64,000 bases of DNA from positions 1 to 64,000 of the forward strand of contig NZ_JARRAB010000015.1 of assembly GCF_030376615.1 (NCBI RefSeq). Reading direction: 5' to 3'. Below, piece after piece: positions 1,409-22,049 of this stretch (its first letter is position 1; every line of letters begins with the position of its first letter). The notes below the pieces were generated by a model, which saw only the letters and a program-made list of their open reading frames with translations, ran no database searches and was not told where the DNA came from. Position numbers and translations under genes: made by a program. The stretch is from Pseudomonas sp. sp1636. GTDB lineage: Bacteria; Pseudomonadota; Gammaproteobacteria; Pseudomonadales; Pseudomonadaceae.

Positions 1409-1416
1409 GGCGCTAA

Positions 1417-4255: not shown

Positions 4256-4284
4256 GGTCTGTCGCGTTCCTCGATGCTGCTTTT

Positions 4285-4366: not shown

Positions 4367-4390
4367 GGTTGGGGGGGCGCCTTGATACCG

Positions 4391-5998
<1,608 letters not shown>

Positions 5999-6019
5999 CG
6001 ATTTGGCTCCGGTTCAATC

Positions 6020-6088
6020 CGTAGGGTGGATGACGCTTTATGCATCCACCGGCTCTGGTGGAAAACCTGCGCGGTTTTCCACCCTACG
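6020..6088. repeat. REP-like double hairpin (CGTAGGGTGG type)
   Basis: The outer arms are CGTAGGGTGG and CCACCCTACG. Inside are two hairpins, GGTGGATG...CATCCACC and GGTGGAAAAC...GTTTTCCACC. It fills most of the liuA-liuB gap and matches the element at 1318-1408. Confidence 0.8.
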
Positions 6089-6101
6089 TGCGGCAATCGC
6101 C

Positions 6102-7265
6102 TTACTTGGTCTCGTTGAACAGCTCGCGGCCGATCAGCATGCGCCTGATCTCGCTGGTGCCGGCGCCGATCTCGTAGAGCTTGGCGTCGCGCAGCAGGCG
6201 GCCGGTGGGGAACTCGTTGATGTAGCCGTTGCCGCCGAGAATCTGGATCGCCTCCAGGGCCATCTGCGTCGCGCGTTCGGCGCTGTAGAGGATCACCCCG
6301 GCGGCGTCCTTGCGGTTGGTCTCGCCGCGGTCGCAGGCCTGGGCCACGGCGTACAGGTAGGCGCGGCTGGCGTTGAGCTGGGTGTACATGTCGGCCACCT
6401 TGCCCTGGATCATCTGGAACTCGCCGATGCTCTGGCCGAACTGCTTGCGGTCGTGGATATAGGGCAGCACCACGTCCAGGCAGGCCTGCATGATGCCGAT
6501 CGGCCCGCCGGCCAGCACCACGCGTTCGTAGTCCAGGCCGCTCATCAGCACCCGTACGCCGCCGTTTTCCTTGCCGAGGATGTTCTCTTCCGGCACCTCG
6601 ACGTCATCGAAGAACAGTTCGCAGGTGTTGGAACCGCGCATGCCCAGCTTGTCGAACTTGTTGCCGCGGGAGAAGCCCTTCCAGTCGCGCTCGACGATAA
6701 AGGCGGTGATGCCGTGGGCGCTCTTGTCCAGGTCGGTCTTGGCGTAGATCACGTAGGTGTTGGCGTCCGGGCCGTTGGTGATCCAGGTCTTGGAGCCATT
6801 GAGCACGAAGTGGTCGCCGCGGCGCTCGGCGCGCAGCTTCATCGACACCACGTCGGAGCCGGCGTTGGGCTCGCTCATGGCCAGGGCGCCGACGTGCTCG
6901 CCGCTGATCAGCTTGGGCAGGTACTTGGCCTTCTGCTCGGGCGTGCCATTGCGGTTGATCTGGTTGACGCACAGGTTGGAGTGGGCGCCGTAGGACAGGC
7001 CGACCGAAGCCGAAGCACGGCTGATCTCCTCGATGGCGACCACGTGGGCCAGGTAGCCCAGGCCGGCGCCGCCGTATTCCTCGGAGACGGTGACCCCGAG
7101 CAGGCCCATGTCGCCGAACTTCTTCCACATGTCGGCGGGGAACAGGTTGTCGCTGTCGATGGCCGCGGCGCGCGGCGCCAGTTCCGCGGCGACGAAGGCC
7201 TGCACCTGCTCGCGCAGCATGTCGATGGTTTCGCCGAGGGCGAAGTTGAGGGACGGATAGCTCAT
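6102..7265 (-). CDS. liuA: Isovaleryl-CoA dehydrogenase
   Basis: This FAD enzyme oxidises isovaleryl-CoA to 3-methylcrotonyl-CoA, committing leucine carbon to the liu pathway. The 387-residue product carries the isovaleryl-CoA dehydrogenase hallmark of a catalytic glutamate in [14 protein letters not shown] (helix G), while the usual C-terminal glutamate position is replaced in [11 protein letters not shown]. The start at 7265 ([10 protein letters not shown]) matches the family N-terminus. An in-frame ATG at 7301 would add 12 unlikely residues. First gene of the liu operon, with a perfect LiuR-type palindrome 61 nt upstream of its ATG. Confidence 0.96.
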
Positions 7266-7326
7266 GGAAGGCACCTTGATTGTCGTTGTCGGCTCGTACA
7301 TTGGTATGGGTTGTCAGTCCATATAC

Positions 7327-7344
7327 CTTTACGTTAACGTAAAG
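7327..7344. promoter_or_regulatory. LiuR-type operator in the liuA/ligase divergent region
   Basis: The perfect 18-bp palindrome CTTTACGTTAACGTAAAG lies 61 nt from the liuA ATG and 84 nt from the divergent ligase ATG. Its core recurs ahead of the importer (10104) and ahead of liuR (16813). MerR-family activators bind such symmetrical sites within promoters, so it may serve both directions. Confidence 0.85.
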
Positions 7345-7428
7345 CTGGCTTCGTGAGCTGTCAAGCCTCGAGCGCCAATCGAAGTTCAAACGCCAGCCTC
7401 AGAACAAGCAGAACAAGCGAGGAATTCC

Positions 7429-9111
7429 ATGACTTCACCCAGTTACACCCGCGGATTGCAGGACAAACCCCTGTTGGCCATGACCATAGGCGCGGCGTTC
7501 GATCAGACGGTGGCGCGTTTCGCCGAGCGCGAGGCGCTGGTGGTTCGTCATCAACAGCTACGTTACAGCTGGGCTCAGCTGGGCGAGGCGGTGGATCGCT
7601 GTGCCCGCGCCTTGTTGGCCATCGGCATGCAGCCCGGCGAGCGCCTCGGCATCTGGGCGCCGAACTGTGCCCAGTGGTGCATCGCCCAATTCGCCAGCGC
7701 CAAGGTTGGCGTGGTGCTGGTCAATATCAACCCGGCCTACCGCCTCAGCGAACTCGAGTATGCGCTCAAGCATTCCGGCTGCCGCTGGCTGATCTGCGCC
7801 GATGCGTTCAAGAGCAGCGACTACCACGCGATGCTCGGTGAACTGTTGCCGGAGCTGGCCGGTTGCGCCGTCGGTGCACTGCAAAGCCGCCTATTGCCCG
7901 AGCTGCGTGGGGTGATCAGTCTCGGCCAGCAACCGGCCGTCGGTATGTTCGACTGGACGGCGTTCCTGGCCCGTGGCGATGAGGTCGGCCCGGAGCAGTT
8001 GCGCGCCTGCAGTGCCCAGCTGCAGTTCGACGACCCGATCAATATCCAGTACACCTCGGGCACCACCGGCTTCCCCAAGGGCGCCACCCTCAGCCACTAC
8101 AATATCCTCAACAACGGCTATATGGTCGGCGAAAGCCTGGGCCTGACCGAGCATGACCGCCTGGTGATCCCGGTGCCGCTGTACCACTGCTTCGGCATGG
8201 TGATGGGCAACCTCGGCTGTCTGACCCATGGCAGCACCATGATCTACCCGGGCGCCGCCTTCGAACCGCTGGGCACCCTGCAGGCGGTGGCCGAGGAGCG
8301 GGCCACGGTGCTCTACGGCGTGCCCACCATGTTTATCGCCGAGCTGGATCTGCCGGAGCGCGCCGGCCTGGATCTGTCCAGCCTGCGCAGCGGGATCATG
8401 GCCGGCGCCACCTGCCCGATCGAGGTGATGAAACGGGTGATCGGCGAGATGCACATGGCCGAGGTGCAGATCGCCTACGGCATGACCGAAACCAGCCCGG
8501 TGTCGACCCAGACGGCCGCCGATGACGATCTGCAGTGCCGGGTCAGCAGCGTCGGCCGCACCCAGCCCCATCTGGAGAGCAAGGTGATCGACGAGCAGGG
8601 ACGCATCGTCCCGCGTGGGCAGGTCGGTGAACTCTGTACCCGTGGTTACAGCGTGATGCTCGGTTACTGGAACAATCCTGCGGCCACCGCCGAAGCTCTG
8701 GATGCGGCGCGCTGGATGCACACCGGCGACCTGGCGGTGATGGACGAGCAGGGCTACCTGAGCATCGTCGGGCGCAACAAGGACATGATCATCCGCGGTG
8801 GCGAGAACGTCTATCCGCGCGAGATCGAGGAGTTCCTGTTCGGCCATCCGGCGGTGGCCGATGTGCAGGTGGTGGGCATTCCCGACGACAAATATGGCGA
8901 GGAAATCGTTGCCTGGATCAAGTGCCACCCGGGCCACCAGGCGGCTGCGGCGGAACTGACCGAGTTCTGCAAGGGCCGCATCGCCCATTTCAAGGTGCCG
9001 CGCCACTTCCTGCTGGTCGACGAGTTCCCGATGACGGTCACCGGCAAGGTGCAGAAATTCCGCATGCGCGAGCTCAGCATCGAGCGCCTGGAGCTCACCT
9101 CGAAACCTTAG
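7429..9111 (+). CDS. AMP-forming acyl-CoA ligase of the LiuR block
   Basis: This enzyme probably activates a short or branched carboxylic acid to its CoA thioester, with isovalerate as the obvious candidate from context. The 560-residue product has the P-loop [16 protein letters not shown], the A5 motif YGMTETSP, the A7-A8 region [13 protein letters not shown]...[16 protein letters not shown], and the catalytic-lysine motif [13 protein letters not shown]. It is divergent from liuA and shares the intergenic LiuR-type palindrome. A GAGGAA ribosome site precedes the ATG. The fold is clear, but substrate choice is inferred, and a longer or aromatic acid cannot be excluded. Confidence 0.88.
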
Positions 9112-9168
9112 GCTTTGGCACCTGCGGCGCCAGCGAGCCTGGCGCCGTTTCAGATAAAGGAGTATCCG

Positions 9169-9759
9169 ATGTCCCCGCAGATCAGCCGCTTTGCGCTGCC
9201 CGAAAACCTCGAGCAATTACCTGACGATATGCGTGAGCGAATACTCGCGGTGCAGGAGAAGGCCGGCTTCGTGCCCCATGTGTTCCTCATGCTGGCCCAT
9301 CGTCCGGACGAGTTCCGCGCCTTCTTCGCCTACCACGACGCCTTGATGGAACGTCAATCCGACAGCCTGACGCCGGCGGAAAAGGAGATGATCGTGGTCG
9401 CCACCAGTGCCCGCCACGGCTGCTTGTACTGCGTGGTGGCGCATGGCGCGGTGTTGCGCATCTACAGCAAGGATCCGCTGCTGGCCGACCAGGTGGCGGT
9501 CAACCACCGCACCGCGCCGCTCGCCGAGCGCCAGCGCCTGATGCTCGACTTCGCCTTTCACGTCGGCCTCGAGCGTGGCGGCCTGGATGGCGACTGGCAG
9601 GCACGCCTGCAGGCGGTCGGCTTCAGCCTCGACGACATCTGGGACATCGGCGCCATCACCGCCTTCTTCAGCCTGTCCAACCGCCTGGTATCGCTGGCCG
9701 GCACGCCGCCCAATGCCGAGTTCTACCTGATGGGCCGTGTGCCCAGGGCGCCGGCTTGA
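9169..9759 (+). CDS. AhpD-like peroxidase-related protein
   Basis: This 196-residue protein belongs to the carboxymuconolactone decarboxylase/AhpD superfamily of peroxidase-related enzymes. The diagnostic thiol motif is GCLYCVVAHG, where the CxxC pair and nearby histidine match the AhpD redox centre. The start at 9169 follows AAAGGAG. It lies 57 nt after the acyl-CoA ligase and probably shares its transcript. Its exact partner or substrate is unknown. A role in removing peroxides during acyl-CoA dehydrogenase flux is a guess from neighbourhood. Confidence 0.8.
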   Translation: MSPQISRFALPENLEQLPDDMRERILAVQEKAGFVPHVFLMLAHRPDEFRAFFAYHDALMERQSDSLTPAEKEMIVVATSARHGCLYCVVAHGAVLRIYSKDPLLADQVAVNHRTAPLAERQRLMLDFAFHVGLERGGLDGDWQARLQAVGFSLDDIWDIGAITAFFSLSNRLVSLAGTPPNAEFYLMGRVPRAPA

Positions 9760-10178
9760 AACTACGCCGCTAGCTGCAGCGCAAGCTCCCCTGGCATGCC
9801 GGGGAGCCCATGACTTTGCCGTCTTTCCACCGTGCGTTCAGGGGCGTGGGCAGGGCTGTGCGCGGCGGGTGCAACGGTTTCAATCGATGCGACTTTTATG
9901 CATAACGCACCTGATTTTTTGCTCGTTATTATTTTACGAATGCCTGCCTATACTCTGACTCGCCGGTCATGGGGGCATGGTTCGGCAGGCTTCGCCAGCA
10001 ATAACCGCGGTCGGAATAACTAGGGGCTGGCCGCATCAATAGCTGCTCTCAGTTTGAAGCGTCATATCCAGACTTTCTGGTCGCAGGTAGACCTTCGTAT
10101 AGTATTCACGTTTACGTAAAGGTAATAGTGTCAGCACCGCCATAACCGATAACAACAATCAAGGTTAGAGGGCTCCAC
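9760..10178. other. Intergenic region upstream of the importer operon
   Basis: No convincing gene lies in these 419 bases. A GCTCCCC/GGGGAGC hairpin at 9785-9807 without a T-run follows the AhpD-like gene and may stop or stabilise its transcript. An AT-rich patch around 9895-9960 contains a TATACT that could be a -10 element. The LiuR-type site at 10104 follows a TATAGT at 10098. Candidate small ORFs here lack ribosome sites. Confidence 0.6.
10104..10121. promoter_or_regulatory. LiuR-type operator ahead of the importer operon
   Basis: ATTCACGTTTACGTAAAG differs from the liuA palindrome at only three of 18 positions. It ends 57 nt before the first importer ATG. The match predicts co-regulation of the transporter with leucine catabolism. 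Confidence 0.75.
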
Positions 10179-10955
10179 ATGTCACCAGAGTTCGTATTGG
10201 AAACACGGGGTTTGACCAAGGAATTTCGCGGCTTCACCGCGGTGGACTCGGTCGATCTGCGTGTGCAGAAGGGACACATCCATGCGTTGATCGGACCCAA
10301 CGGGGCCGGCAAGACCACGGTGTTCAACCTGCTCACCAAGTTCCTTCCGCCCAGCCGCGGCGAGATCCTCTATCAGGGCAAGGCGATCACCGCCATGAAG
10401 TCGAACGAGATCGCCCGTCTCGGCCTGGTGCGCTCCTTCCAGATTTCCGCGGTGTTCGGCCACATGAGCGTGGTGGAGAACGTGCGCGTGGCATTGCAGC
10501 GCAAGCTGGGCAACGCTTTCCACTTCTGGAAGTCCGAGCGCAGCCTCGAGGTGCTCAACGAGCGCGCCCTGCAGATGCTCGACGAGGTCGGCCTGCTCGA
10601 TTTCGCCGACACCCTGGCCATCGAGTTGCCCTATGGGCGCAAGCGCGCGCTGGAACTGGCCACCACCCTGGCACTGGATCCGACGGTATTGCTGCTCGAC
10701 GAGCCGACCCAGGGCATGGGCGCGGAGGACGTGGAAATGGTCATCGGCCTGGTGCGCCGCGCCGCGGTGGGGCGCACGGTGCTGATGGTCGAGCACAACC
10801 TCAGTGTGGTCAGCCAGCTGTGCGACCGCATCACCGTGCTGGCGCGCGGTGCGATCCTCGCCGAGGGCGACTACGCCAGCGTGTCGGCCAACCCCCAGGT
10901 GCGCGAGGCCTACCTGGGCAGCGAAGCGGCCGTCCTCGAGGAGGCTCACGCATGA
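10179..10955 (+). CDS. HAAT-family ABC transporter ATPase (LivG-like)
   Basis: This is one of two ATPases of an importer related to branched-chain amino acid (Liv) systems. The 258-residue product has Walker A GPNGAGKTT (residues 39-47), a LivG-type degenerate signature LPYGRKRALELA, Walker B VLLLDEPTQG, and the H-loop LMVEHN. Its stop overlaps the next start (ATGA). It is the first gene of a five-gene transporter set with a LiuR-type palindrome 57 nt upstream, so the cargo is probably linked to leucine or branched-acid catabolism. The cargo itself cannot be read from the sequence. Confidence 0.9.
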   Translation: MSPEFVLETRGLTKEFRGFTAVDSVDLRVQKGHIHALIGPNGAGKTTVFNLLTKFLPPSRGEILYQGKAITAMKSNEIARLGLVRSFQISAVFGHMSVVENVRVALQRKLGNAFHFWKSERSLEVLNERALQMLDEVGLLDFADTLAIELPYGRKRALELATTLALDPTVLLLDEPTQGMGAEDVEMVIGLVRRAAVGRTVLMVEHNLSVVSQLCDRITVLARGAILAEGDYASVSANPQVREAYLGSEAAVLEEAHA

Positions 10956-11674
10956 CCAGCCTGCACAGTCCGGATTACGAGCAACTGCGGGTCAGCGACC
11001 TGCATGCCTTCTACGGCGAGTCGCACATCCTCCACGGCATCGACCTGCTGGTGCGCCGCGGCGAGCTGGTGACCCTGCTCGGGCGCAACGGCTCGGGTCG
11101 TTCCACCACCCTGCGCGCGATCATGAACCTGGTGGGCCGCCGCACCGGCTCGATCGTGGTCAACGGCAACGAGACCCTGGGTATGGCTGCGCACCTGATC
11201 CCGCGGCTGGGCGTCGGCTTCTGTCCGGAGGAGCGCGGCATCTTCGCCAGCCTCAACGTCGAGGAGAATCTGCTGCTGCCGCCCATGGTGCGCAGCGGCG
11301 GCATGAGCCTCGACGAGATCTACGAGATGTTCCCCAACCTCTACGAGCGACGCTTCAGCCAGGGCACCCGGCTGTCCGGCGGCGAGCAGCAGATGCTGGC
11401 CATGGCGCGCATCCTGCGTACCGGCGCCAACCTGCTGCTGCTGGATGAGATCACCGAGGGCCTGGCCCCGGTGATCGTGCAGAAGCTGGCCGAGGTGCTG
11501 ATCAAGCTCAAGAACAAGGGCCTGACCATAGTGCTGGTGGAGCAGAACTTCCGCTTCGCCGCGCCGCTGGCCGATCGGCATTACCTGATGGATCACGGCC
11601 AGATCGTCGAGGAAATCAGCGCCGCCGAGCTGTCGTCCAAGCAGGAACTGCTGCACCGCTGCCTAGGCGTCTGA
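10952..11674 (+). CDS. HAAT-family ABC transporter ATPase (LivF-like) with arginine in Walker A
   Basis: Second ATPase of the importer, 240 residues. The signature LSGGEQQMLAMARIL and Walker B LLLLDEITEGLAP are normal for LivF. The Walker A is GRNGSGRSTT, with arginine (CGT, about residue 50) where nearly all ABC ATPases have the catalytic lysine. No single-base error would convert a lysine codon to CGT. The first ATPase keeps its lysine, so this pair may hydrolyse ATP asymmetrically. The start at 10952 is fixed by the ATGA overlap with the upstream gene; a longer frame upstream is an overlap artefact. Confidence 0.9.
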   Translation: MTSLHSPDYEQLRVSDLHAFYGESHILHGIDLLVRRGELVTLLGRNGSGRSTTLRAIMNLVGRRTGSIVVNGNETLGMAAHLIPRLGVGFCPEERGIFASLNVEENLLLPPMVRSGGMSLDEIYEMFPNLYERRFSQGTRLSGGEQQMLAMARILRTGANLLLLDEITEGLAPVIVQKLAEVLIKLKNKGLTIVLVEQNFRFAAPLADRHYLMDHGQIVEEISAAELSSKQELLHRCLGV

Positions 11675-11777
11675 ACCCGGTTTCACCCCTCGAAACATGC
11701 AGTACGGCGCGGCTCAGGCCCGTCGGATCGGGATTGCTTTGCCCGCGACAACAACAATAACTGTGGAAGGTAACCAA

Positions 11778-12992
11778 ATGAATCTGTTCCAGAAGACTGC
11801 AAGCGCCATCCTCGTCTCCAGCCTGATCGCCGGCGCCGCCCAGGCCCAGGTCAGCGACGACGAAATCCGCATCGGCTACCTGGCCGACATGTCCGGCACC
11901 TACCGCGATCTCTCCGGGCCGGGCGGCCTGGAAGCGCTGAAGATGGCGGTCGAGGACTTCGGCGGCCAGATCGACGGCAAGAAGATCGTCATTTTCAGTG
12001 CCGACGACCTGAACAAACCGGATGTCGGCGCCAACACCGTGCGCCAGTGGGTCGATGAGCGCAACGTCGACATGGTCACCGGCCTGGTCGCCTCCTCGGT
12101 GGTGCTGGCGGCGAGCCAGGTGGTGGAGCAAGCCGGCAAGCTGGCGCTGATTTCCGGCGCGGCGGCCTCCAGCATTACCAACGAATTCTGCTCGCCCAAC
12201 CATGTCCACTGGACCTACGACTCCTACGCCCTGGCCAACGGCACGGCCAAGGCGGTGCTGGCCAATGGCGGCAAGAGCTGGTTCATCCTGACCGCCGACT
12301 ACGCCTTCGGCCACGCCATGGAAAGCGACATCACCAAGGTGGTCGAAGCCGATGGCGGCGCCGTGCTGGGCAAGGTGCGCCATCCGTTCCCGAGCAGCGA
12401 CTTCTCATCCTACATCTTGCAGGCCCAGGGTTCCGGTGCCGATGTGATCGCCCTGGCCAACGCCGGCGCCGACACGGTCAATTCGCTGATGACCGCCAAT
12501 CAGTTCGGCGTCGCCCAGTCCGGGCAGAAGCTGGCCGGCATGGTGGTGTTTCTCAACGACATCCACGCCATGGGCCTGGATGTGACCCAGGGACTGATGC
12601 TGACCACCGGCTGGTACTGGGATCTCAACGAGGAAAGCCGCGCCTGGGCCAAGCGCTATGAGGAACGCGTCGGCAAGATGCCGGGCATGGTGCCGGCCGG
12701 TATCTACTCGGCCGCGATGCACTACCTGAATGCGGTCAAGGCCACTGGCAGCGACGATACCCAGGCGGTGCGGGCGCAGATGATGGCGGCTCCGGTCAAC
12801 GACATGTTCGCCAAGAACGGCAAGATTCGCGCCGATGGCCGCATGGTTCACGACATGTACCTGGCCCAGGTGAAGACCCCGGCCGAGTCCAAGGGCGAGT
12901 GGGATCTGTACAAGATCGTGCGCACCATCCCCGGGGACGAGGCCTTCCGTCCGCTGGCCGCGAGCCAGTGCAAGCTGCTGACGCAGAACTGA
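11778..12992 (+). CDS. Periplasmic binding protein of the HAAT-type importer
   Basis: This 404-residue protein starts with a classic signal peptide, MNLFQKTASAILVSSLIAG, cleaved probably after AQA at residue 23. The mature part fits the Leu/Ile/Val-type periplasmic binding family (IRIGYLADMSGTYRDLSGPGG, VTGLVASSVVLAASQVVE). GGAAGG-like spacing (GGAAGG at 11765) supports the ATG at 11778. It lies between the ATPase and permease genes. Many members of this family bind acids or aromatic compounds rather than amino acids, so the ligand is open; isovalerate-like acids are my inference from regulation. Confidence 0.9.
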   Translation: MNLFQKTASAILVSSLIAGAAQAQVSDDEIRIGYLADMSGTYRDLSGPGGLEALKMAVEDFGGQIDGKKIVIFSADDLNKPDVGANTVRQWVDERNVDMVTGLVASSVVLAASQVVEQAGKLALISGAAASSITNEFCSPNHVHWTYDSYALANGTAKAVLANGGKSWFILTADYAFGHAMESDITKVVEADGGAVLGKVRHPFPSSDFSSYILQAQGSGADVIALANAGADTVNSLMTANQFGVAQSGQKLAGMVVFLNDIHAMGLDVTQGLMLTTGWYWDLNEESRAWAKRYEERVGKMPGMVPAGIYSAAMHYLNAVKATGSDDTQAVRAQMMAAPVNDMFAKNGKIRADGRMVHDMYLAQVKTPAESKGEWDLYKIVRTIPGDEAFRPLAASQCKLLTQN

Positions 12993-13065
12993 TCGGCAGC
13001 TAACCCCAGCTCATCACCCGGCTGCCGGCAGCCGGGTGTCACGGACTTCCAGTGGGTGGAAAATC

Positions 13066-13953
13066 ATGACTATGGTACTCGGCATTCCGCTGAGCGTGCT
13101 GCTCGGCCAGCTGTTGCTCGGGCTGATCAACGGGGCCTTCTATGCCTTGCTCAGCCTGGGCCTGGCGATCATCTTCGGTCTGCTACGGATCATCAACTTC
13201 GCCCATGGCGCCCAGTACATGCTCGGTGCCTTCGCCGCCGTGCTCGGCCTCAACTACCTGGGGGTGAACTATTGGGTGGCGCTGGTGCTGGCACCGCTGC
13301 TGGTCGGCGCCCTCGGCATGCTTATCGAGCGCGGCCTGCTGCGCCGGATCGCCGGCGAGGATCATCTCTATGGCCTGCTGCTGACCTTCGGCCTGGCGCT
13401 GATCGTCGAGGGCTGCTTCGTCAAGCTGTTCGGCGTCTCCGGTGCGGCCTACCCGATGCCCGAGCTGCTCAAGGGTGGCTATAACTTGGGCTTCATGTTC
13501 CTGCCCACCTACCGTGCCTGGGTCGTGGTGGCGGCGCTGGTGGTGTGTCTGGCCACCTGGTACATGATCGAGCGCACCCGACTCGGTTCTTACCTGCGTG
13601 CCGGCACCGAGAACCCCAAGTTGATGCAGGCCTTCGGTATCAACGTGCCGCTGCTGATCACCCTGACCTACGGCTATGGCGCGGCGCTGGCGGCGTTTGC
13701 CGGGGTGCTGGCCGCACCCATTTATTCGGTCACCCCGACCATGGGCGCCAACCTGCTGATCGTGGTGTTCGCCGTGGTGGTGATCGGCGGCATGGGCTCG
13801 ATCATGGGCGCCATCATCACCGGCCTGGCCATGGGCCTGATCGAGGGTTTGACCAAGGTGATCTATCCGGAAGCGGCCAATACCGTGGTGTTCCTGGTGA
13901 TGGTGCTGGTGCTGCTGGTTCGTCCCGCGGGACTGTTCGGAAAGGAGACATAA
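13066..13953 (+). CDS. HAAT-family ABC permease (LivH-like)
   Basis: This 295-residue inner-membrane protein is highly hydrophobic, with about eight predicted membrane segments. It contains ALLSLGLAIIFGLLRIINFAHG and AFAGVLAAPIYSVTPTMGANLL, both typical of LivH permeases. It forms half of the transmembrane channel with the following gene. A GGTGGA site five bases before ATG 13066 favours this start over the upstream in-frame ATG. Two bases separate its stop from the start of the partner gene. Confidence 0.9.
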   Translation: MTMVLGIPLSVLLGQLLLGLINGAFYALLSLGLAIIFGLLRIINFAHGAQYMLGAFAAVLGLNYLGVNYWVALVLAPLLVGALGMLIERGLLRRIAGEDHLYGLLLTFGLALIVEGCFVKLFGVSGAAYPMPELLKGGYNLGFMFLPTYRAWVVVAALVVCLATWYMIERTRLGSYLRAGTENPKLMQAFGINVPLLITLTYGYGAALAAFAGVLAAPIYSVTPTMGANLLIVVFAVVVIGGMGSIMGAIITGLAMGLIEGLTKVIYPEAANTVVFLVMVLVLLVRPAGLFGKET

Positions 13954-13955
13954 GC

Positions 13956-14960
13956 ATGACGAGTCTGCACATCAAACAGGGCAGCCTGGTGCTGCCGCCG
14001 CAAGTGGTGCGCGAGCGCCAGCAGGCGGCACAGCGGCGCCAGCGCTGGTTCTACCTGGCACTGTTCGGTATCGCGCTGGTCGCACCGCTGGCGGTGTACC
14101 CGGTATTTCTGATGAAGCTGCTGTGCTTCGCCTTGTTCGCCTGCGCCTTCAACCTGCTGCTCGGCTATGCCGGCCTGCTGTCGTTCGGCCACGCCGCCTT
14201 TCTCGCCACCGGCGGCTACGTCACCGGATATATGCTCAGCCAGTACAGCGGCCTGGGCACCGAGCTGGGGATACTCGCCGGCACCCTGGCCTCCACCTTG
14301 CTGGGGCTGCTGTTCGGCCTGCTGGCGATCAGACGCCAGGGCATCTATTTCGCCATGATCACCCTGGCGCTGTCGCAGTTGGTGTTCTTCATCTATTTGC
14401 AGGCGCCGTTCACCGGAGGCGAGAACGGCCTGCAGGGCGTACCCCGTGGCCATTTGCTCGGGTTGTTCGACCTGAGCGACAACCTGACCCTGTACTACTT
14501 CGTCCTTGCGGTGTTCATCTTCGGCTTCGCCGTGATCCAGCGCACCATCCATTCGCCCTACGGCCAGGTGCTCAAGGCGATCCGTGAGAACGAGCCGCGG
14601 GCCATCTCCCTGGGCTACAACGTCGAGGCGCACAAACTGCTGGCCTTCGTTATTTCCGCCACCTTGACCGGCCTGGCCGGCTCGACCAAGACCGTGGTGT
14701 TTCAGCTGGCCTCGCTGACCGACGCCCACTGGCATATGTCCGGCGAGGTGATCCTGATGACCCTGCTCGGCGGTGTCGGCACCGTGCTCGGCCCACTGGT
14801 CGGCGCCGGCGTGGTGGTCACCCTGCAGAGTTACCTGTCCAACGGGCCGTTGGGCGAGTGGGTGCATGTGATCCTCGGGGTGATCTTCGTCGCCTGCGTG
14901 TTGCTGTTCCGGGCCGGCATCGTCGGCTGGGTGCTGAAACTGGCCAGGCGCAACTTCTAA
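13956..14960 (+). CDS. HAAT-family ABC permease (LivM-like)
   Basis: This 334-residue permease is the second channel subunit. It has the LivM hallmark AFNLLLGYAGLLSFGHAAFLATGGY, many hydrophobic segments, and the EAA-like coupling region AIRENEPRAISLGYNVEAHKLLAF. The ATG at 13956 follows AAAGGAG. A much longer in-frame extension upstream merely overlaps the previous permease. It closes the ABC set; the porin gene begins 215 nt later. Confidence 0.9.
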   Translation: MTSLHIKQGSLVLPPQVVRERQQAAQRRQRWFYLALFGIALVAPLAVYPVFLMKLLCFALFACAFNLLLGYAGLLSFGHAAFLATGGYVTGYMLSQYSGLGTELGILAGTLASTLLGLLFGLLAIRRQGIYFAMITLALSQLVFFIYLQAPFTGGENGLQGVPRGHLLGLFDLSDNLTLYYFVLAVFIFGFAVIQRTIHSPYGQVLKAIRENEPRAISLGYNVEAHKLLAFVISATLTGLAGSTKTVVFQLASLTDAHWHMSGEVILMTLLGGVGTVLGPLVGAGVVVTLQSYLSNGPLGEWVHVILGVIFVACVLLFRAGIVGWVLKLARRNF

Positions 14961-15175
14961 AGCAAGCCTGCTGTTGTCTGCTCAAGGTGCGGATCGAGAT
15001 CCGCGCCGGGGGCGCTGTTTGCCTGATTTTTGCTCTGCCGAGTCGTCGGCGGGGTTGTCTAGACGCCACGGGAAACCCCGTGGGTAACAGGTCGGTTGCA
15101 TTGGCCGTCGCGGGTATTGCTTGGCAGTTGGTTGCCTGGTGTTGCGGCACTACCCACCTACAAGAAGAGAGACCC

Positions 15176-16510
15176 ATGTACGTTGAAAACTCGATTACCA
15201 GGCCCTTCAAGGCCAAAGTCCTCTGCGTGGCGATTGCTGCCAGCCTTGCTGGCTTCATGGCGCCCGCCAGCGCCGACACCGCGTCCGACCTGGAGGTGCT
15301 GAAGGCGCAGATCGAAGCGCTGCAGAACAGCATTGCGGCGCTCGAGCAGAAGCAGGCCGAAACCGCCAAGGCGGTTTCACCCGCCAACAGCGTGACCGCC
15401 GGCACCACCCCAGGTTCGTTCAAGCTGCCCGGCTCCGATACCTCGGTCAAGTTCGGCGGCTACGTCAAGGCCGACCTGATATATAGCGACAGCAGCGCGG
15501 GCGCAGGCAGCACGCTCGACCAGTTGCTGGTTCCGGGTTCGATTGCCCTGGACAACGACACTGAGGACGGCCAGGTGACCCTTCACGCCCGCCAGACCCG
15601 TCTGAACGTCGCCACCAGCACCCCGACCGCTTGGGGCGAGCTCAAGACCTTCGTCGAGGCCGACTTCTTCGGCGCGAACGGCAACGAGATCGTCAGCAAC
15701 TCCAACGGCCTGCGCACCCGCCATGCCTTCGGCAGCCTCGGCGGCCTGCTCGCCGGCCAGACCTGGTCTACCTTCATGGACGCGGGCTCCCTGCCCGAGA
15801 CCCTGGACTTCGGCGGCCCGGTCGGCGAACTCTTCATCCGCCAGACCCAGGTGCGCTGGACCGAGGGCTTCGACGGCGGCTCCTGGTCGGTCGCGGCGGA
15901 AAGCCCCGAGTCCTACCTGACGACGGCCAATGCCGGCGGCGGTACGAATGCGGCGAGCGACGACGACAAGGTGCCCGACCTCGTTGCTCGAGTGGACTTC
16001 AACACCTCCGCCGGCCGCTTCGCCCTGGCCGCGATGGCGCGCAACATTCGCGTCGATACGGCCACGGCCGCCGACGACCAGTGGGGTGGCGCGCTCGCCG
16101 CTTACGGCGTAGTGCCGACCGTCGGCAAGGACACCTTCCAGTTCTCGCTCACCGCCGGCAACGCGCTCGGCCGCTACATGGGCCAGGCCGTGTTCTCCGA
16201 CGGCGACGTCGATGCCGCCGGCAAACTCAACCTGAACAACCAGTGGGGCACGATCCTCGCCTACCGCCACTTCTGGGCAGACAACCTGCGTTCCACGCTG
16301 GCGCTGTCGACCGCCCGGGCGAGCAGCCCGAGCGCTGCGACGACGCGGAACATGAACGAAAGTGCCGACACCGCTCACCTGAACCTGCTGTGGAGCCCGG
16401 TTGCCAACACGACTTTCGGCCTCGAACTGATTCACGCGAGGCGCGAAACGGAAGATGGCCGCAATGGCGAGTTGAACCGCGTCCAGACCTCGGCGCAGTA
16501 CAACTTCTGA
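15176..16510 (+). CDS. DcaP-like outer-membrane porin
   Basis: The 444-residue product has a signal peptide ending near ASA (about residue 35), then a short coiled coil (SDLEVLKAQIEALQNSIAAL) and a beta-barrel of alternating residues that ends in a terminal aromatic, QYNF. This order matches DcaP-type trimeric porins, which import small carboxylates in Acinetobacter. AGAAGAGAG precedes the ATG. It lies directly after the ABC importer and ends before a strong terminator, so it is a plausible outer-membrane entry route for the same cargo. Confidence 0.85.
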   Translation: MYVENSITRPFKAKVLCVAIAASLAGFMAPASADTASDLEVLKAQIEALQNSIAALEQKQAETAKAVSPANSVTAGTTPGSFKLPGSDTSVKFGGYVKADLIYSDSSAGAGSTLDQLLVPGSIALDNDTEDGQVTLHARQTRLNVATSTPTAWGELKTFVEADFFGANGNEIVSNSNGLRTRHAFGSLGGLLAGQTWSTFMDAGSLPETLDFGGPVGELFIRQTQVRWTEGFDGGSWSVAAESPESYLTTANAGGGTNAASDDDKVPDLVARVDFNTSAGRFALAAMARNIRVDTATAADDQWGGALAAYGVVPTVGKDTFQFSLTAGNALGRYMGQAVFSDGDVDAAGKLNLNNQWGTILAYRHFWADNLRSTLALSTARASSPSAATTRNMNESADTAHLNLLWSPVANTTFGLELIHARRETEDGRNGELNRVQTSAQYNF

Positions 16511-16587
16511 TCGCTCGCGCCGTCTGACGGCGCTGCAGCTAGGGTTGGGGACGATTCTTGCTTTTGCGTTGTTTTGCCTTGTTGCGC

Positions 16588-16656
16588 GGAGGCACCACCC
16601 GCAGCAACTTCGGCAGCGACCTGGGCGAGAACCGCTTCATCGTCAGCTACTGCTAG
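16588..16656 (+). pseudogene. Possible C-terminal remnant of an outer-membrane porin
   Basis: One frame reads GGTTRSNFGSDLGENRFIVS followed by YC and a stop. The ENRFIVSY phrase resembles the closing strand of OprD-type porins, which normally continue with P and hydrophobic residues. No start codon or upstream barrel is present, so this looks like a decayed fragment. The match is by eye only and may be chance. Confidence 0.3.
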
Positions 16657-16691
16657 CCGCTCGATCCGATTGTTCTCCGGTGTGAAGTTTG

Positions 16692-16717
16692 CCGGGCCCT
16701 GGTGGCCCGGTTTTTTT
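16692..16717 (+). terminator. Terminator after the importer-porin block
   Basis: A CCGGGCC/GGCCCGG stem with a five-base loop is followed by seven T residues. Confidence 0.9.
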
Positions 16718-16812
16718 ATCGTCGTCTCTCGCCGCTTATGCCGATCTGGATAGCGGCCGGTCACCTTCACCGCCTGCCTGCGGCCGGTGTGCCTGTTCTG
16801 GTCAGTCGTTGC

Positions 16813-16830
16813 GTTGACGTTAACGTAATG
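16813..16830. promoter_or_regulatory. LiuR-type operator at the liuR promoter
   Basis: GTTGACGTTAACGTAATG keeps the core TTnACGTTwACGTAA of the other two sites. TTGACG inside it could be the -35 box. It ends 92 nt before the liuR ATG and suggests autoregulation. Confidence 0.8.
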
Positions 16831-16922
16831 AGTTGTTAGCGTTCCCAGGCTCATAACCATGAACCCGTGCCGTGCGGACTCAGGCGCGGCCTTTCCCATG
16901 GGCAATCGACCAAGGATCAAGC

Positions 16923-17312
16923 ATGACCGCCAAGACCTACAGCATTTCCGAACTGGCGCGCGAGCTGGACGTGACCACCCGGACCATTCGTTTCTACGAA
17001 GAGCAGGGCATGCTGTTACCGACCCGGCGCGGCCAGGAGCGGATCTATACGGCCAAGGACAGGGTCGCGCTCAAGCTGATTTTGCGCGGCAAACGCATCG
17101 GCTTCTCCCTGGCCGAATGCAAGACCCTGATCGAGCTGTACGACCCGCGGGGCGACAACCGCAACCAGCTCAACATCATGCTGGGCAAGATCGCCGAACG
17201 GCGCCTGCAGCTGGAGCAGCAGTTGCTCGATATCCAGCAGATGCAGCTGGAACTGGACACGGCCGAAGAGCGTTGCCGCGCCGCCTTGCTGGAAATCCCC
17301 GAAACCCATTGA
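16923..17312 (+). CDS. liuR: MerR-family regulator of branched-chain catabolism
   Basis: This 129-residue MerR-type regulator has the N-terminal winged helix SISELARELDVTTRTIRFYEEQGM, the sequence IYTAKDRVALKLILRGKRIGFSLAECKTLIELYDP, and a C-terminal coiled-coil dimerisation helix. This pattern is close to LiuR of Pseudomonas aeruginosa as I remember it. There is no cysteine-rich metal loop, so an acyl-CoA-type effector fits better than a metal. AAGGATCAAGC precedes the ATG at 16923. In P. aeruginosa liuR directly precedes liuA; here the ligase, importer and porin lie between them, about 9.7 kb away. It runs convergent to the TetR gene. Confidence 0.9.
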   Translation: MTAKTYSISELARELDVTTRTIRFYEEQGMLLPTRRGQERIYTAKDRVALKLILRGKRIGFSLAECKTLIELYDPRGDNRNQLNIMLGKIAERRLQLEQQLLDIQQMQLELDTAEERCRAALLEIPETH

Positions 17313-17331
17313 AGCCTTGGGCCGCCGCCGC

Positions 17332-17934
17332 TCAATCCGGGAGTGCGCGCAAGGCGCCCTGCAGGGCGCTCAGTGCCATGTCGCGCAGCAGGTTGAGACG
17401 TGCCGGCGCGCTCAGCTGCGGCGTCTCGACCCAGGCCGGCAGCTGATTGAGCAGGGCCACGATGCCACTCAAGGCGGCGCGGCGGTTGTTGCCGAGCGGC
17501 TGCCCGGTGAAGCGCTCCACGCTTGCCACCAGCTGCTGTTCGTAGCGGCCGCGCAGCGCCCCGATCTGTGCCTGTTGCTCGCTGGTCAGGCAGTGGCTGT
17601 CGTATTCGGCGAGGCGGAAATGCGCGCTCATGCTCGCGTGCAGCTGTAGGTGCGCCTCGAGCAGTCCGTGCAAACACTCGGCTGGAGTCGCCGCCTGCTG
17701 GTTCACTTGGCGGGCGCCATGCAGCAACTCTTCGTAGAGTTCTTCGATCAACTCGAACAGCAGCGCCTCTTTGTTTTCGATGTGGTTGTAGATGGAGCCG
17801 GGTTTGATGCCAAGGTAGTCGGCCAGCTCGCGCATGCCGACCCGGCTGAAACCGCGTGCGGCGAACAGGCACAGGGCCTGCTTGCGGGTGGCCTGATAGC
17901 GTGAGGGATCGGCGATTCGCTGGGTGGCGGGCAT
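17332..17934 (-). CDS. TetR/AcrR-family regulator
   Basis: The 200-residue product has a typical N-terminal TetR DNA-binding domain (ALCLFAARGFSRVGMRELAD, then LGIKPGSIYNHIENKEALLF) and an unrelated helical ligand domain. It lies 106 nt downstream of the valine-arm acyl-CoA dehydrogenase on the same strand, so it may belong to that operon or have its own promoter. It converges on liuR with 19 bp between stops. TetR relatives near acyl-CoA genes often sense acyl-CoAs, but the ligand here is unknown. Confidence 0.85.
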   Translation of the reverse strand: MPATQRIADPSRYQATRKQALCLFAARGFSRVGMRELADYLGIKPGSIYNHIENKEALLFELIEELYEELLHGARQVNQQAATPAECLHGLLEAHLQLHASMSAHFRLAEYDSHCLTSEQQAQIGALRGRYEQQLVASVERFTGQPLGNNRRAALSGIVALLNQLPAWVETPQLSAPARLNLLRDMALSALQGALRALPD

Positions 17935-18040
17935 GGCTGTTCAGGATGGTGGCTGGGCGAGCGTCGAGCATGGCGCCCCGGGCGGGAAAAACCCAGGTCG
18001 CCAGCGCTCGATTTGCCTGAGCGGTTTGGCCAGTGGCCGC

Positions 18041-19192
18041 TTACAACGGGTAATGCGCCAGTTCGCGGGCGATCAACAGGCGCTGGATTTCGCTGGAACC
18101 CTCGTAGATCTGGGTGATACGCGCATCGCGGTAGTAGCGCTCCACCGGGAAATCCTCCAGGTAGCCATAGCCGCCGTGGATCTGCAGAGCCTTGGAACAC
18201 ACCCGCTCGGCCATCTCCGAGGCGAACAGCTTGGCCTGCGAGGCCTCCGACAGGCAGGGCAGGCCGGCGCTCTTCAGGCGGGCGGCGTGGTGGATCAGCA
18301 GGCGCGCGGCGTTGAGCTGGGTGTGCATGTCGGCGAGCAGGTTGGCCACGCTCTGGTGCTCGGCGATTGGCTTGCCGAACTGGATGCGTTCGCGGGCATA
18401 GCCCAGGGCCGCCTCGAAGGCCGCGCGGGCGATGCCCAGGGCCTGGGCGGCGATGCCGATACGGCCGCCCTCAAGGTTGGACAGGGCGATGGCCAGACCC
18501 TTGCCGCGCTCGCCGAGCAGGTTGGCGGCGGGGATGCGGCAGTCGGCCAGGGTCACCGCGCAGGTGTCGGAGGCCTTGATGCCCAGCTTGTGTTCGCTGC
18601 GCTCGACCAGGAAACCCGGGGTTTTGGTCGGCACCAGGAAGGCCGACAGCCCCTTCTTGCCCAGTGCCGGGTCGGTCACGGCGAAGACGATGGCCAGCTC
18701 GGCACGTTTGCCGTTGCTGACGAACTGCTTGGCGCCGTTGAGCACCCACTCATCGCCGTCGAGCACGGCCTGGGTGCGCAGGTTGTGCGCCTCGGAGCCG
18801 GCCTGGGGTTCGGTCAGGCAGAAACAACCGATGGCCTGGCCGCTGGCCAGCCGCGGCAGCCAGCTGCGTTTCTGCGCCTCGCTGCCGTACCTGAGCAGCG
18901 GCCCGCAGCCGACCGAGTTGTGAATGCTCATCAGGGCGCCGAGGGCACCGTCGCCGGCGGAGATTTCCTCCACGGCCAGGGCGTAGGCGAGGTAGTCGGT
19001 GTAGCTGCCGCCCCAGTCCTCGGGCACCACCATGCCGAGCAGACCCAGCTCGCCCATCTGCGCCACCACGGCGTCGTCGAGCCAGCCGGCCTTCTCCCAG
19101 GCCTGGGCATGCGGCGCCACCTCGCTGCGGGCGAAGTCGCGGGCCAGGTCGCGGATCATGCGTTGTTCTTCGGTCAATTGGCTGTCGTGCAT
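18041..19192 (-). CDS. Acyl-CoA dehydrogenase, probable isobutyryl-CoA dehydrogenase
   Basis: This 383-residue FAD enzyme introduces the 2,3 double bond into a short acyl-CoA. It has [38 protein letters not shown], and the catalytic glutamate in the C-terminal [12 protein letters not shown], the usual position for short-chain members and different from LiuA. Its place after mmsB and the 3-hydroxyisobutyryl-CoA hydrolase points to isobutyryl-CoA in valine breakdown. It lies 32 nt after the hydrolase gene. Specificity cannot be proven without assay. Confidence 0.85.
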
Positions 19193-19224
19193 TACAGCGG
19201 TCTCCTCGGTTCTGGCCGCGTGCT

Positions 19225-20313
19225 TCAGGCGTGGCGCAGGGGGTTACTGGCGGCGCAGCGAAAGCCGCTGAAGAAGGCCTGCACCCGCTGCGGATCCAGT
19301 TCGGCCAGGGTCGGCGGGTTCCAGCGCGGGGCCTTGTCCTTGTCGATGATCAGCGCGCGGATGCCTTCGATCAGGTCGCCGCGTTCGAACCATTGGTAGT
19401 CCAGGTGCAGCTCCTGGGCGAAGCAGTCGGCCAGCGGCAGATTACGGCCGCGCTGCAGCAGCTCCAGGGTCACCGCCATGGCCAGCGGCGAGCGGCTGTC
19501 CAGCACCCGCACGCAGTTCTGCGCCCAGGCCAGCAGCTCGGGGCGGTTCTCGCTGAGCAGGGCGGCGCGGATCGCCGCCAGGTCGGGCAGGGCGAAGTAA
19601 TCGTCGATGGCCTGGCGCAGAACCTTGAGCTCGCTAGAGGGCAGCTCGCCGTAGGCCATGGCCTCGAGCAGTTGCTGCAAACATTGCAGCGGCGAGCCCG
19701 ACCAGCTCAGGCTGTCCAGCGCCTGGTCGAACTCGACCAGCCGTTCGCTGGCCAGGCAATGGTCGGCCAGCCCGGCGTAGAGCGCGTCGGCGGCGCCGAC
19801 CTGGAGGCCGGTGAGGCCCAGGTAGAAGCCCAGTTGGCCGGGCAGGCGGGGCAGGAAGTAGCTGCCGCCGACATCCGGGAAGAAGCCGATGCCGACTTCC
19901 GGCATGCCCAGCTTGGCCCGCTCGCTGACCACCCGTAGCGAGGCCGCCTGGGCCAGGCCCATGCCGCCGCCGAGGACGAAGCCGTCGAGCAGCGCCAGCA
20001 CCGGCTTGGGGTAGCCGTGCAGGTACTGGTCGAGGGCGTACTCCTCCTCGAGAAACAGTTCGTGCTGGTTGCCGCCGCTGGTGTAGCTGTCGTACAGCAT
20101 GCGGATGTCGCCGCCGGCGCAGAAGGCCTTCTCGCCGTTGCCGCGCAGCACCACGGCGAGCACCTCGGGATCCTGCTCCCAGGCATGCAGGTGCTGCAGG
20201 AGCAGGCGCACCATGGGCAGGGTCAGGGTGTTCAGGCCGCTCGGACGGTTGAGGCACAGGTGGCCGATGCGGTTGCGCACGCTGGCCAGCACCGGGGCTT
20301 CGGCGCCGCTCAT
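19225..20313 (-). CDS. 3-hydroxyisobutyryl-CoA hydrolase (crotonase fold)
   Basis: This enzyme frees 3-hydroxyisobutyrate from its CoA ester in valine catabolism. The 362-residue length is that of hydrolase-type crotonases and longer than simple hydratases. Motifs include [38 protein letters not shown] and [21 protein letters not shown]. Its start overlaps the mmsB stop (ATGA), so the two are translationally coupled. Confidence 0.92.
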
Positions 20314-21206
20314 GCCTGGGCTTCCTGGCGGTACAGCTTGATGATGGCGGAGAAGTCCAGGCCGCCGTTACCCTGCAGACTGAAGCTCTGGTACAGCTGC
20401 TGGGCGGCGGCGCCGAGCAGTACCGGCTGGCGCGCGTGCTTGGCCGCTTCGGTGGCCAGGCCGAGATCCTTGAGCATCAGGTCGCTGCCGAAACCGCCGC
20501 TGTAGCCGCGCGCGGCCGGGGCGTTGTCCAGCACGCCGGGGAACGGGTTGTTGATCTCCGAGCTCCAGCAACGGCCGCTGGAGGTGTTGATGATGCCGGC
20601 CAGGACTTTGGCGTCCATGCCCAGCGCCACGCCGAGGGCCATGGCTTCGGCGACGCCGACCATGGAGATACCCAGCAGCATGTTGTTGGCGATCTTGGCC
20701 ACCTGGCCGTTGCCCGCCGCGCCACAGTGGACGATGTTCTTGCCCATGGCGGCGAGGATCGGTTGGGCGCGGTCGAAGTCGGCGACATCGCCGCCGACCA
20801 TGAAGGTCAGGGTGCCCGCTGCGGCGCCGCCGGTGCCGCCGGAGACCGGCGCATCGAGCATGGGATTGCCCTGGGCGGCTGCCTGGGCGGCCACTTCGCG
20901 GGCGCTGAGCGGGTCGATGGTGGAGCTGTCGATCAGCACCACGCCCGGAGCGACTTGCGCCAGCAGGCCGTCCTGGCCGAGGTAGACCTGCTTCACCTGG
21001 GCCGCCGCCGGCAGCATGCTGACGATGGCCGCGACCGGCGCCTGGGCCACCGCGGCAGGCGATGCGGCACTCGTGGCGCCGGCCTCTACCAGGGCGGCGA
21101 CAGCCTGGGCGCTGGGGTCGAAGACGGTGACGCTGTGGCCGGCCTTGAGCAGGTTGCGGGCCATGGGGCCGCCCATGTTGCCGAGACCGAGAAATCCGAT
21201 ATGCAT
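20310..21206 (-). CDS. mmsB: 3-hydroxyisobutyrate dehydrogenase
   Basis: This NAD-dependent enzyme oxidises 3-hydroxyisobutyrate to methylmalonate semialdehyde. The 298-residue product begins MHIGFLGLGNMGGPMARNLL, a Rossmann fold with GLGNMG, followed by DAPVSGGTGGAAAGTLTFMV and the catalytic lysine segment KIANNMLLG. The start at 21206 fits this N-terminus; an in-frame ATG at 21491 overlaps the preceding hydratase gene. It sits between an enoyl-CoA hydratase (25 nt upstream) and the hydrolase (4-nt overlap). Confidence 0.93.
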   Translation of the reverse strand: MHIGFLGLGNMGGPMARNLLKAGHSVTVFDPSAQAVAALVEAGATSAASPAAVAQAPVAAIVSMLPAAAQVKQVYLGQDGLLAQVAPGVVLIDSSTIDPLSAREVAAQAAAQGNPMLDAPVSGGTGGAAAGTLTFMVGGDVADFDRAQPILAAMGKNIVHCGAAGNGQVAKIANNMLLGISMVGVAEAMALGVALGMDAKVLAGIINTSSGRCWSSEINNPFPGVLDNAPAARGYSGGFGSDLMLKDLGLATEAAKHARQPVLLGAAAQQLYQSFSLQGNGGLDFSAIIKLYRQEAQA

Positions 21207-21231
21207 GGTGAATACCTCTGTAATGGGGGGC

Positions 21232-22005
21232 TCAGCGGTGCTGAAACTGCGGTTGGCGTTTTTCCACGAAGGCGCGCATGCCTTCCTTCTGGTCGTGACT
21301 GGCGAACAGCGAATGGAACAGCCGGCGTTCGAAACGCACGCCCTCGGCCAGGCCCAGTTCGAAGGCCCGGTTGACGCATTCCTTGACCAGCATGCTGGCC
21401 GGCAGCGACTTGGCGGCGATGCCACGGGCCGCCGCCAGGGTCTGTTCGAGCAGCTCGGCGGCGGGGAATACCCGCGCCACCAAGCCGGCACGCTCGGCTT
21501 CCTCGGCGCCGAGCTGGCGGCCGGTCAGGCACAGCTCCATGGCCTTGGCCTTGCCCAGGGCGTGGGTCAGGCGCTGGGTGCCGCCGATGCCGGGGATCAC
21601 TCCCAGGCTCAGCTCCGGCAGGCCGAAGCGGGCGGTGTCGGCGGCGTAGATGAAGTCGCACATCAGCGCCAGCTCGCAACCGCCGCCCAGGGCGTAGCCG
21701 GCCACCGCGGCGATCAGCGGCTTGCGCCGGTTGCCGATGCGGTCGGCGGCGGCGAAGAAGTCGTCGAGGTAGATCTGCGGGTAGCCCTTGTCGACCATCT
21801 CCTTGATGTCGGCGCCGGCGGCGAACGCCTTGGCCGAGCCGGTGATGACCATACAGCCGACTTCCGGGTCGGTTTCCAGGCGGTCGAGCACCTGGTTGAG
21901 TTCGCCGATCAGCTGGCTGTTCAGGGCGTTGAGCGCTTGCGGTCGGTTGAGGGTGATCAGGCCGACGCGTTCGCGCACCTCGACCAGCAGGGTTTGATAG
22001 TCCAT
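21232..22005 (-). CDS. Enoyl-CoA hydratase
   Basis: This 257-residue crotonase hydrates a 2-enoyl-CoA, probably methacrylyl-CoA in the valine arm. The motifs are complete: [35 protein letters not shown] and [20 protein letters not shown] with two acidic catalytic residues. It may also supply the hydratase step for tiglyl-CoA, because the isoleucine arm has no hydratase of its own in this window. The start at 22005 ([10 protein letters not shown]) is preferred over the long upstream frame, which overlaps mmsA. Confidence 0.92.
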
Positions 22006-22049
22006 GGCGATGTCTCCTGAGAGGCCGGCGCCAGGCCGGCCCGGCAGCC

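Follow-up and report, generated by a model that had tools for sequence, protein, structure and literature searches.

Which substrate is carried by an importer that stands among the genes of leucine and isovalerate catabolism? The question is raised by a stretch of 64,000 nucleotides from Pseudomonas sp. sp1636 (contig NZ_JARRAB010000015.1, positions 1 to 64,000; hereafter the window), in which the genes of an ATP-binding cassette (ABC) importer and a porin gene are placed between liuABCDE, on the minus strand, and liuR. From comparison of sequences the set probably serves, with real room for doubt, to take up the free short branched carboxylic acids of leucine and valine catabolism under the control of LiuR. 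The most likely candidate cargoes would be isovalerate, isobutyrate and 2-methylbutyrate, perhaps also 3-methylcrotonate. An acid cargo is the best reading because of the position among the liu genes, the conserved LiuR-like site, the frequent coenzyme A (CoA) ligases and the lost amino-group signature of the binding protein. The chances appear about even that this is a dedicated, ATP-driven importer of free short branched acids under LiuR control, in which the CoA ligase and, among Pseudomonadaceae, the carboxylate porin are interchangeable, and that it is common to Pseudomonas/Stutzerimonas, the Halomonas group, Marinobacter, Nitrincola and Oceanospirillum. The parts taken singly are of known kinds; what would be new is their combination, together with the predicted cargo and a LiuR-like site found across the class.

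An earlier note on this DNA had described a HAAT-family ABC set followed by a DcaP-like porin and preceded by a LiuR-type site, and all three were recovered. The set (10179-14960) comprises a Peripla_BP_6 binding protein, two BPD_transp_2 permeases and two ATPases, as in the HAAT family; the porin (15176-16510) falls into Pfam DcaP (PF19577, 100.2 bits), and TTCACGTTTACGTAAAGGTAAT lies at 10105-10126. Because the gap between livH and livM is 2 bases and livG and livF overlap, the importer genes fit one transcript. The porin starts 215 bases 3′ of livM. The features are as follows.

284-7301, minus strand: leucine/isovalerate catabolic genes (open reading frames with translations), which we take, from family knowledge, to be liuE, liuD, liuC, liuB and liuA
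7328-7343, no strand assigned: LiuR-like palindrome TTTACGTTAACGTAAA, liuA/ligase intergenic region (motif search)
7429-9111, plus strand: acyl-CoA ligase with AMP-binding and AMP-binding_C domains; NCBIfam PRK12583 subfamily, 961.6 bits, cut-off 832
10105-10126, no strand assigned: LiuR-like site, about 70 bases 5′ of livG (motif search)
10179-10955, plus strand: LivG-like ATPase (ABC_tran and BCA_ABC_TP_C)
10952-11674, plus strand: LivF-like ATPase (ABC_tran), 4-base overlap with livG
11778-12992, plus strand: periplasmic binding protein of 404 amino acids (Peripla_BP_6, 352.6 bits; PDB 3i09, E value 2e-124)
13066-13953, plus strand: LivH-like permease (BPD_transp_2)
13956-14960, plus strand: LivM-like permease (BPD_transp_2)
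16814-16828, no strand assigned: LiuR-like site upstream of liuR (motif search)
16923-17312, plus strand: MerR-family regulator (MerR_1 and MerR-DNA-bind), presumably LiuR, judging from its position and family

The LiuR-like site upstream of livG

According to passages of PMC3223726, LiuR belongs to the MerR family and represses the use of branched-chain amino acids in proteobacteria. When the whole genome of the strain was searched with TTKACGTNAACGTAA, allowing at most one mismatch, six matches were obtained at four places, namely the liuA/ligase intergenic region (7328), 10106-10125, a position in front of liuR (16814) and one on contig C12. The backward pattern gave three matches in the same genome, so lone matches may be due to chance; for three sites within 9.5 kb, each 5′ of a gene of the set, chance is not likely. 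The fourth place (contig C12, 171964-171978, one mismatch) lies outside the cluster and may be a chance match.

Sites were scored over a 16-base palindrome with a threshold of 13, the liuA site of the window itself supplying the consensus. In each of the 20 class-I loci (the window and 19 fetched relatives), the best site scored at least 13 and lay 69-81 bases 5′ of livG. No site of at least 13 was found in nine further loci, consisting of L034 and a sister class associated with cyclohexanecarboxylate genes, and in a third class, in which the binding protein gene comes first, none of six loci had a LiuR-like site before that gene. A named set was formed from the best 80 of 587 confirmed relatives; it overlaps the fetched set (L047 and L096 are the same contig), and rows are not independent. 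Twelve named loci had no readable region upstream of livG and were left out; these showed no site of at least 13 before the binding protein gene. Among the 68 readable loci, 59 carried a site of at least 13 upstream of livG. Shuffles of the same upstream stretches reached this score in 31 of 6800 cases. In 38 random segments it was reached by 2 of 529 upstream regions of predicted genes, the segments being taken at round-number positions from 12 genomes, mostly Pseudomonadaceae, and the named set being rich in Halomonas-group and Marinobacter loci. Chance occurrence was rejected on the genome, shuffle and random-segment controls, the backward control still giving its single matches. The conserved site in the promoter region thus points to membership of the importer genes in the LiuR regulon, and the operon may already be listed as an in silico LiuR target in RegPrecise or by Kazakov 2009.

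The nine readable loci below threshold were of several kinds. L105, L110 and L121 neighbour liuR and have a 12-point site; L135 (15 points) and L138 (14 points) carry the site before a ligase gene that precedes livG; and no LiuR-like site was found in L144, L147, L159 and L161. Three Halomonas-group loci (L099, L116 and L120) had kept the site although no liu genes were nearby. A promoter scan of 7250-17400 gave no sigma-70-like match, and an Rfam scan of 6000-26000 gave no match.

The binding protein and the amino group

All five importer proteins scored far below the NCBIfam cut-offs for the leucine/isoleucine/valine (LIV) importer: LivK 44.9 bits (cut-off 477), LivG 191.3 (362), LivF 158.7 (441), LivH 103.7 (379) and LivM 93.9 (366). 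The urea importer UrtABCDE was likewise rejected, since UrtA (63.1 bits, cut-off 492.75), UrtB (181.6, 250.3), UrtC (139.2, 296.2), UrtD (206.6, 304.1) and UrtE (202.3, 285.8) were all below their cut-offs. In LivJ, we take Thr102 and Glu226 to form the amino-group pocket and Ser79 to hold the carboxylate. In the alignment of 80 site-bearing rows, the position of Thr102 was Ala and that of Glu226 non-acidic throughout, and the position of Ser79 was Ser in 74 rows and Thr in 6. The alignment contains a gap near Glu226; positions 252-256 and 258-260 of the window protein were without an acidic residue in all 80 rows. Two other LIV-type binding proteins encoded in the genome of the strain carry the amino-group residues (Thr and Glu in BraC, Thr and Asp in the second).

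These residues bear on the possibility that the set is an extra branched-chain amino acid importer of the LivJ/BraC kind, placed under LiuR since leucine and valine feed these pathways, which we consider unlikely. It would agree with the HAAT subunit make-up and with the co-occurrence of the importer with both leucine and valine genes. The closest solved relatives of the binding protein, 3i09 (Burkholderia mallei BMA2936) and 3n0w (B. xenovorans Bxe_C0949), were also deposited under amino acid names; one literature search on 3I09 as a solute-binding protein found no paper. Against it stand the low LIV scores, the loss of the amino-group residues in every site-bearing row and the presence of two other LIV-type binding proteins in the genome. 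An IlvE-type aminotransferase was found within about 10 kb of the importer in none of the 80 named loci, but it was also absent from the 38 random segments, so this says little. The window set thus resembles E. coli LivJ/LivK-LivHMGF and Pseudomonas BraCDEFG in its five subunits and Pfam domains, but differs from them in lacking the amino-group residues, in scoring below the NCBIfam cut-offs and in belonging to a class that has a LiuR-like site, CoA ligases in its vicinity and, in many cases, a neighbouring porin gene.

The AlphaFold model of the binding protein had a mean predicted local distance difference test score of 85.2. By VIA-align its nearest structures were 3n0w (Z 48.4) and 3i09 (Z 47.0), followed by 4maa (42.5). 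In Foldseek the six rows after 3i09, 3n0w and 4maa were aromatic-acid binders, which came ahead of LIV proteins. The Rhodopseudomonas proteins 4evq, 4evs, 4eyg and 4ey3, among the nearest solved structures with known ligands, are HAAT-type and bind carboxylic acids free of an amino group; they differ from the window protein in that identity is 19-23% and in that they bind aromatic acids, short branched acids being predicted for the window protein.

Partner enzymes and the sister class

Three further features of the window concern the enzymes that may act on the cargo.

9169-9759, plus strand: AhpD-like 'peroxidase-related' protein (TIGR01926, 176.5 bits, cut-off 81.8)
18041-23558, minus strand: valine branch, with genes that we take, from family knowledge and their translations, to encode an acyl-CoA dehydrogenase, a 3-hydroxyisobutyryl-CoA hydrolase-like protein, an MmsB-like and an MmsA-like protein
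23651-25354, minus strand: second acyl-CoA synthetase (AMP-binding; best NCBIfam match MbcS, under cut-off)

CoA ligases were counted first with queries derived partly from the tested loci (L135 and L139), which gave a ligase in 60 of the 80 named loci, in 41 of the 59 site-bearing ones and in 1 of the 38 random segments. Repeating the count with E. coli FadD and PrpE at a fixed search size gave 48 of 80, 31 of 59 and 1 of 38, respectively, and no ligase in either of the 20-kb segments surrounding the genes of the strain's two other LIV-type binding proteins. The fetched class-I relatives had liuA or liuB adjacent in 16 of 19 loci, a ligase in 15 and the AhpD-like gene in 18 (all except L032). 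In the window, the ligase at 7429-9111 is the putative activator of the imported acid. Neither the L139 ligase (346 bits) nor the second ligase of the window (404, i.e. 403.9 bits) came near the cut-off of 850 for the profile of MbcS, which we take to be the branched-acid ligase of Staphylococcus. Two small genes, by eye for a hotdog-type protein and a hydrolase, accompany the L139 ligase 5′ of the importer.

A cargo of branched 2-oxo acids (2-oxoisocaproate, 2-oxoisovalerate) would need no ligase, being converted by the branched-chain 2-oxo acid dehydrogenase (BKD) complex. We regard it as decidedly unlikely, even though an Anabaena HAAT binding protein (4obb) was solved with a 3-methyl-2-oxo acid and the Shewanella LiuR regulon is described, in passages of PMC3223726, as including bkd. 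An E1-type dehydrogenase was found near the importer in 1 of 80 named loci (L113) as against a ligase in 48, with 0 and 1 of 38 in random segments, and the sister class serves a CoA-ligase pathway. Since random segments were also without E1-type and IlvE-type genes, the absence of either is weak evidence.

In the eight sister loci L049-L056, binding proteins 58-69% identical to that of the window are encoded with a ligase, a crotonase-family hydrolase and an acyl-CoA dehydrogenase. The L055 proteins scored 773 bits as cyclohexanecarboxylate-CoA ligase (under the cut-off of 792), 462 bits as BadI (under 467.6) and, for the dehydrogenase AliB, 614 bits as cyclohexanecarboxyl-CoA dehydrogenase (over 575). 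All 8 fetched sister loci, and 6 of the 80 named ones (L119, L129, L131, L144, L146 and L147), had close relatives of this aliA-badI-aliB trio. With this trio, part of the importer family goes with CoA-activated acids free of an amino group. In L049-L056, L119, L129, L131, L144 and L147, the relatives of the importer or of its binding protein that stand beside such genes probably serve to import alicyclic acids and would receive an amino acid transporter annotation. The sister importers of Pseudomonadaceae (L049-L056) and Marinobacter (L144, L147) thus share with the window a related binding protein and a CoA-ligase-based acid pathway, but differ in having no LiuR-like site and in the alicyclic nature of that pathway. 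The window falls outside the cyclohexanecarboxylate class, its neighbours being liu genes, the PRK12583 ligase and the AhpD-like gene.

The sister class also lends support to a different kind of cargo, another CoA-activated acid (terpenoid, alicyclic, aromatic or acetoacetate-like) whose breakdown ends in the Liu pathway, which would account for the place of the set in the LiuR regulon; the site-bearing locus L146 has the ali/bad trio nearby, and the binding protein is structurally near to aromatic-acid binders. This seems quite unlikely to us, because none of the remaining 58 site-bearing named loci showed the trio, their recurrent partners being liu, mms and acyl-CoA dehydrogenase genes (atu and aromatic genes were not searched for). 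Moreover, of the positions that site-bearing rows conserve, 13 are altered in two or more of the three cyclohexanecarboxylate clades. Four of these (41, 107, 127 and 259) fall by alignment into the pocket-lining loops of LivJ, and they differ in two of the three sister clades, not in L144/L147. In a tree of the binding proteins, site-bearing and site-free groups were interleaved, with at least eight trait changes; it was a quick tree with long branches and some weakly supported groupings.

Short branched acids of both pathways are also suggested by the neighbours in other taxa. In L066, from another family of the order, liuEDCBA-liuR diverge from livGF, the binding protein gene, livHM, acdH, hibch and mmsB. 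A similar order, with liuR diverging from an importer that is followed by acyl-CoA dehydrogenase and hydrolase genes, was seen in 14 of the 80 named loci, all from the Halomonas group, and several Marinobacter loci such as L132, L134 and L136 read mmsA, acdH, hydratase/hydrolase, mmsB, ligase, importer. Many loci of the Halomonas group, Marinobacter, Nitrincola and Oceanospirillum have valine genes alongside the importer. The earlier proposal of a CoA-activated, isovalerate-like cargo is therefore kept as to the acid, which the site, the ligases and the lost amino-group signature favour, while isovalerate alone is probably too narrow in view of the valine genes.

The porin slot, distribution and predicted role

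The region between livM and liuR holds three features.

15176-16510, plus strand: DcaP-family porin (Pfam DcaP cut-off 27)
16582-16653, plus strand: 3′-terminal remnant of a gene for an OprD-family porin (protein and DNA similarity)
16691-16717, plus strand: terminator-like hairpin and T run 3′ of the porin gene (terminator scan)

The porin reading frame listed as 14858-16510 begins too early, and a start compatible with a signal peptide was placed by eye at 15176. The protein matched PDB 6eus ('DcaP-like protein') with an E value of 1.6e-16 and was the only DcaP match in the genome of the strain. A DcaP gene was present in 1 of 80 named relatives, L085, which is the closest of them to the window; at an E value of 1e-30, relatives occurred in 6 of 298 genomes of the family including that of the window, the other five at 31-34% identity. 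The DcaP-like porin, which the earlier note had made part of the system, was accordingly dropped as a defining conserved component, being present only in the window and L085. The terminator scan gave 8 terminator-like sites in 7250-17400, where 6.3 were expected from shuffles; the hairpin at 16691 had the longest stem.

The slot 3′ of livM that is held by DcaP in the window is occupied by an OprD-family channel in L032 and L033. Eight g15 and two g18 loci have OprD in the interval that separates the AhpD-like gene from livG, and each of the eight sister loci has it close to the importer; Pfam OprD was confirmed for three of these porins. No OprD was found nearby in five g10 loci, one g16 locus and the contig-edge locus L031. 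The translation of 16582-16653 was identical in 15 of 23 residues to the C-terminus of the L035 OprD (E value 2.6e-4 against the whole window); with the L033 OprD it was identical in 12 of 22 residues over a short stretch, with no match at the scale of the whole window. The DNA matched L086 by 82% over 45 bases and L033 by 76% over 51 bases. This 3′ remnant suggests that an OprD gene once stood after livM and was probably replaced by the DcaP porin. Acinetobacter DcaP (6eus) and the OprD/Occ carboxylate channels are the known counterparts of the window porin; we know of no test of these channels with isovalerate-type acids. OprD channels are described, in PMC3260308, as requiring a carboxyl group on the substrate. 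Since a second carboxylate-type family came to occupy the slot, the importer would seem to benefit from a carboxylate channel, and the swap hints that outer-membrane channel and inner-membrane importer are kept together.

Orthologues of the binding protein with at least 75% identity were present in 52 of 298 genomes of the family. Besides the amino acid names of the closest structures and the trio at L146, several observations weigh against an uptake system for short branched acids. Asp261, close to the lost Glu, is invariant in the 80 site-bearing rows; it is also kept in the ten cyclohexanecarboxylate rows printed, and is therefore not specific for an amino acid ligand. In VIA-align the Brucella LIV-type protein 7jfn (Z 39.0) ties with the aromatic-acid binders, so the fold alone does not pick the type of ligand. 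No ligase was detected with the locus-derived queries in 18 of the 59 site-bearing named loci, nor next door in the class-I loci L031, L032, L033 and L046. OprD was not enriched near the importer (7 of 80 named loci, all Pseudomonadaceae-type, as against 2 of 38 random segments), which makes the OprD link a feature of Pseudomonadaceae, and Acinetobacter DcaP is tied to dicarboxylates. Finally, no relative of the binding protein was found at an E value of 1e-60 in 225 of the 298 genomes, at least 20 of them of the same genus, and P. aeruginosa is known for its use of leucine and isovalerate; the importer is therefore dispensable for growth on the acid.

An uptake system for short branched acids might work as follows. 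The acid would cross the outer membrane through a carboxylate-type channel, DcaP-like in the window and of the OprD family in many Pseudomonadaceae relatives. In the periplasm the binding protein would hold it by its carboxylate, without an amino-group pocket, as its sequence suggests, and the ABC core of LivHM/LivGF type, going by its family, would pump it inward at the expense of ATP. The neighbouring ligase would then form the CoA ester, which may enter either the liuABCDE pathway or the acyl-CoA dehydrogenase/MmsAB route. LiuR, for which the site was observed and both binding and effector are proposed, would keep the system off until branched acyl-CoA intermediates accumulate.

Isovalerate and isobutyrate are common fermentation products of sediments, guts and waste streams, and are usually assumed to enter cells by diffusion. 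With such an importer, traces of both could be scavenged, also at alkaline pH, where passive entry of acids is poor. Because many relatives lack the system, its likely benefit is scavenging, which would help most when the acid is dilute and the pH alkaline. If this is correct, many annotations as 'branched-chain amino acid ABC transporter' would need correcting, and the importer would offer a handle on the scavenging of volatile fatty acids by marine and soil bacteria as well as being useful in strain engineering. Judged by titles and the beginnings of abstracts, literature searches on isovalerate or branched-chain fatty acid transport yielded no description of a bacterial importer, and those on LiuR and ABC transporters yielded, among the matches listed, none that looked like this one; a search for LiuR with isovalerate and ABC transporter found no paper. 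The GapMind paper (PMC9007349) does not model outer-membrane uptake, and isovalerate uptake is not mentioned in passages of it.

Two further kinds of neighbourhood were observed. In L032 the site-bearing importer adjoins genes for an amino acid permease, an alcohol dehydrogenase, an aldehyde dehydrogenase and a LuxR-type regulator, which together may form a route for branched alcohols. In nine Halomonas-group loci (L153, L156-L158, L160, L162-L164 and L067), a gene related to that of the binding protein stands next to CoA ligase and acyl-CoA dehydrogenase genes, and no orthologues of the ABC core genes could be recognised beside it; in L067 a thiolase gene, by eye, is also nearby.

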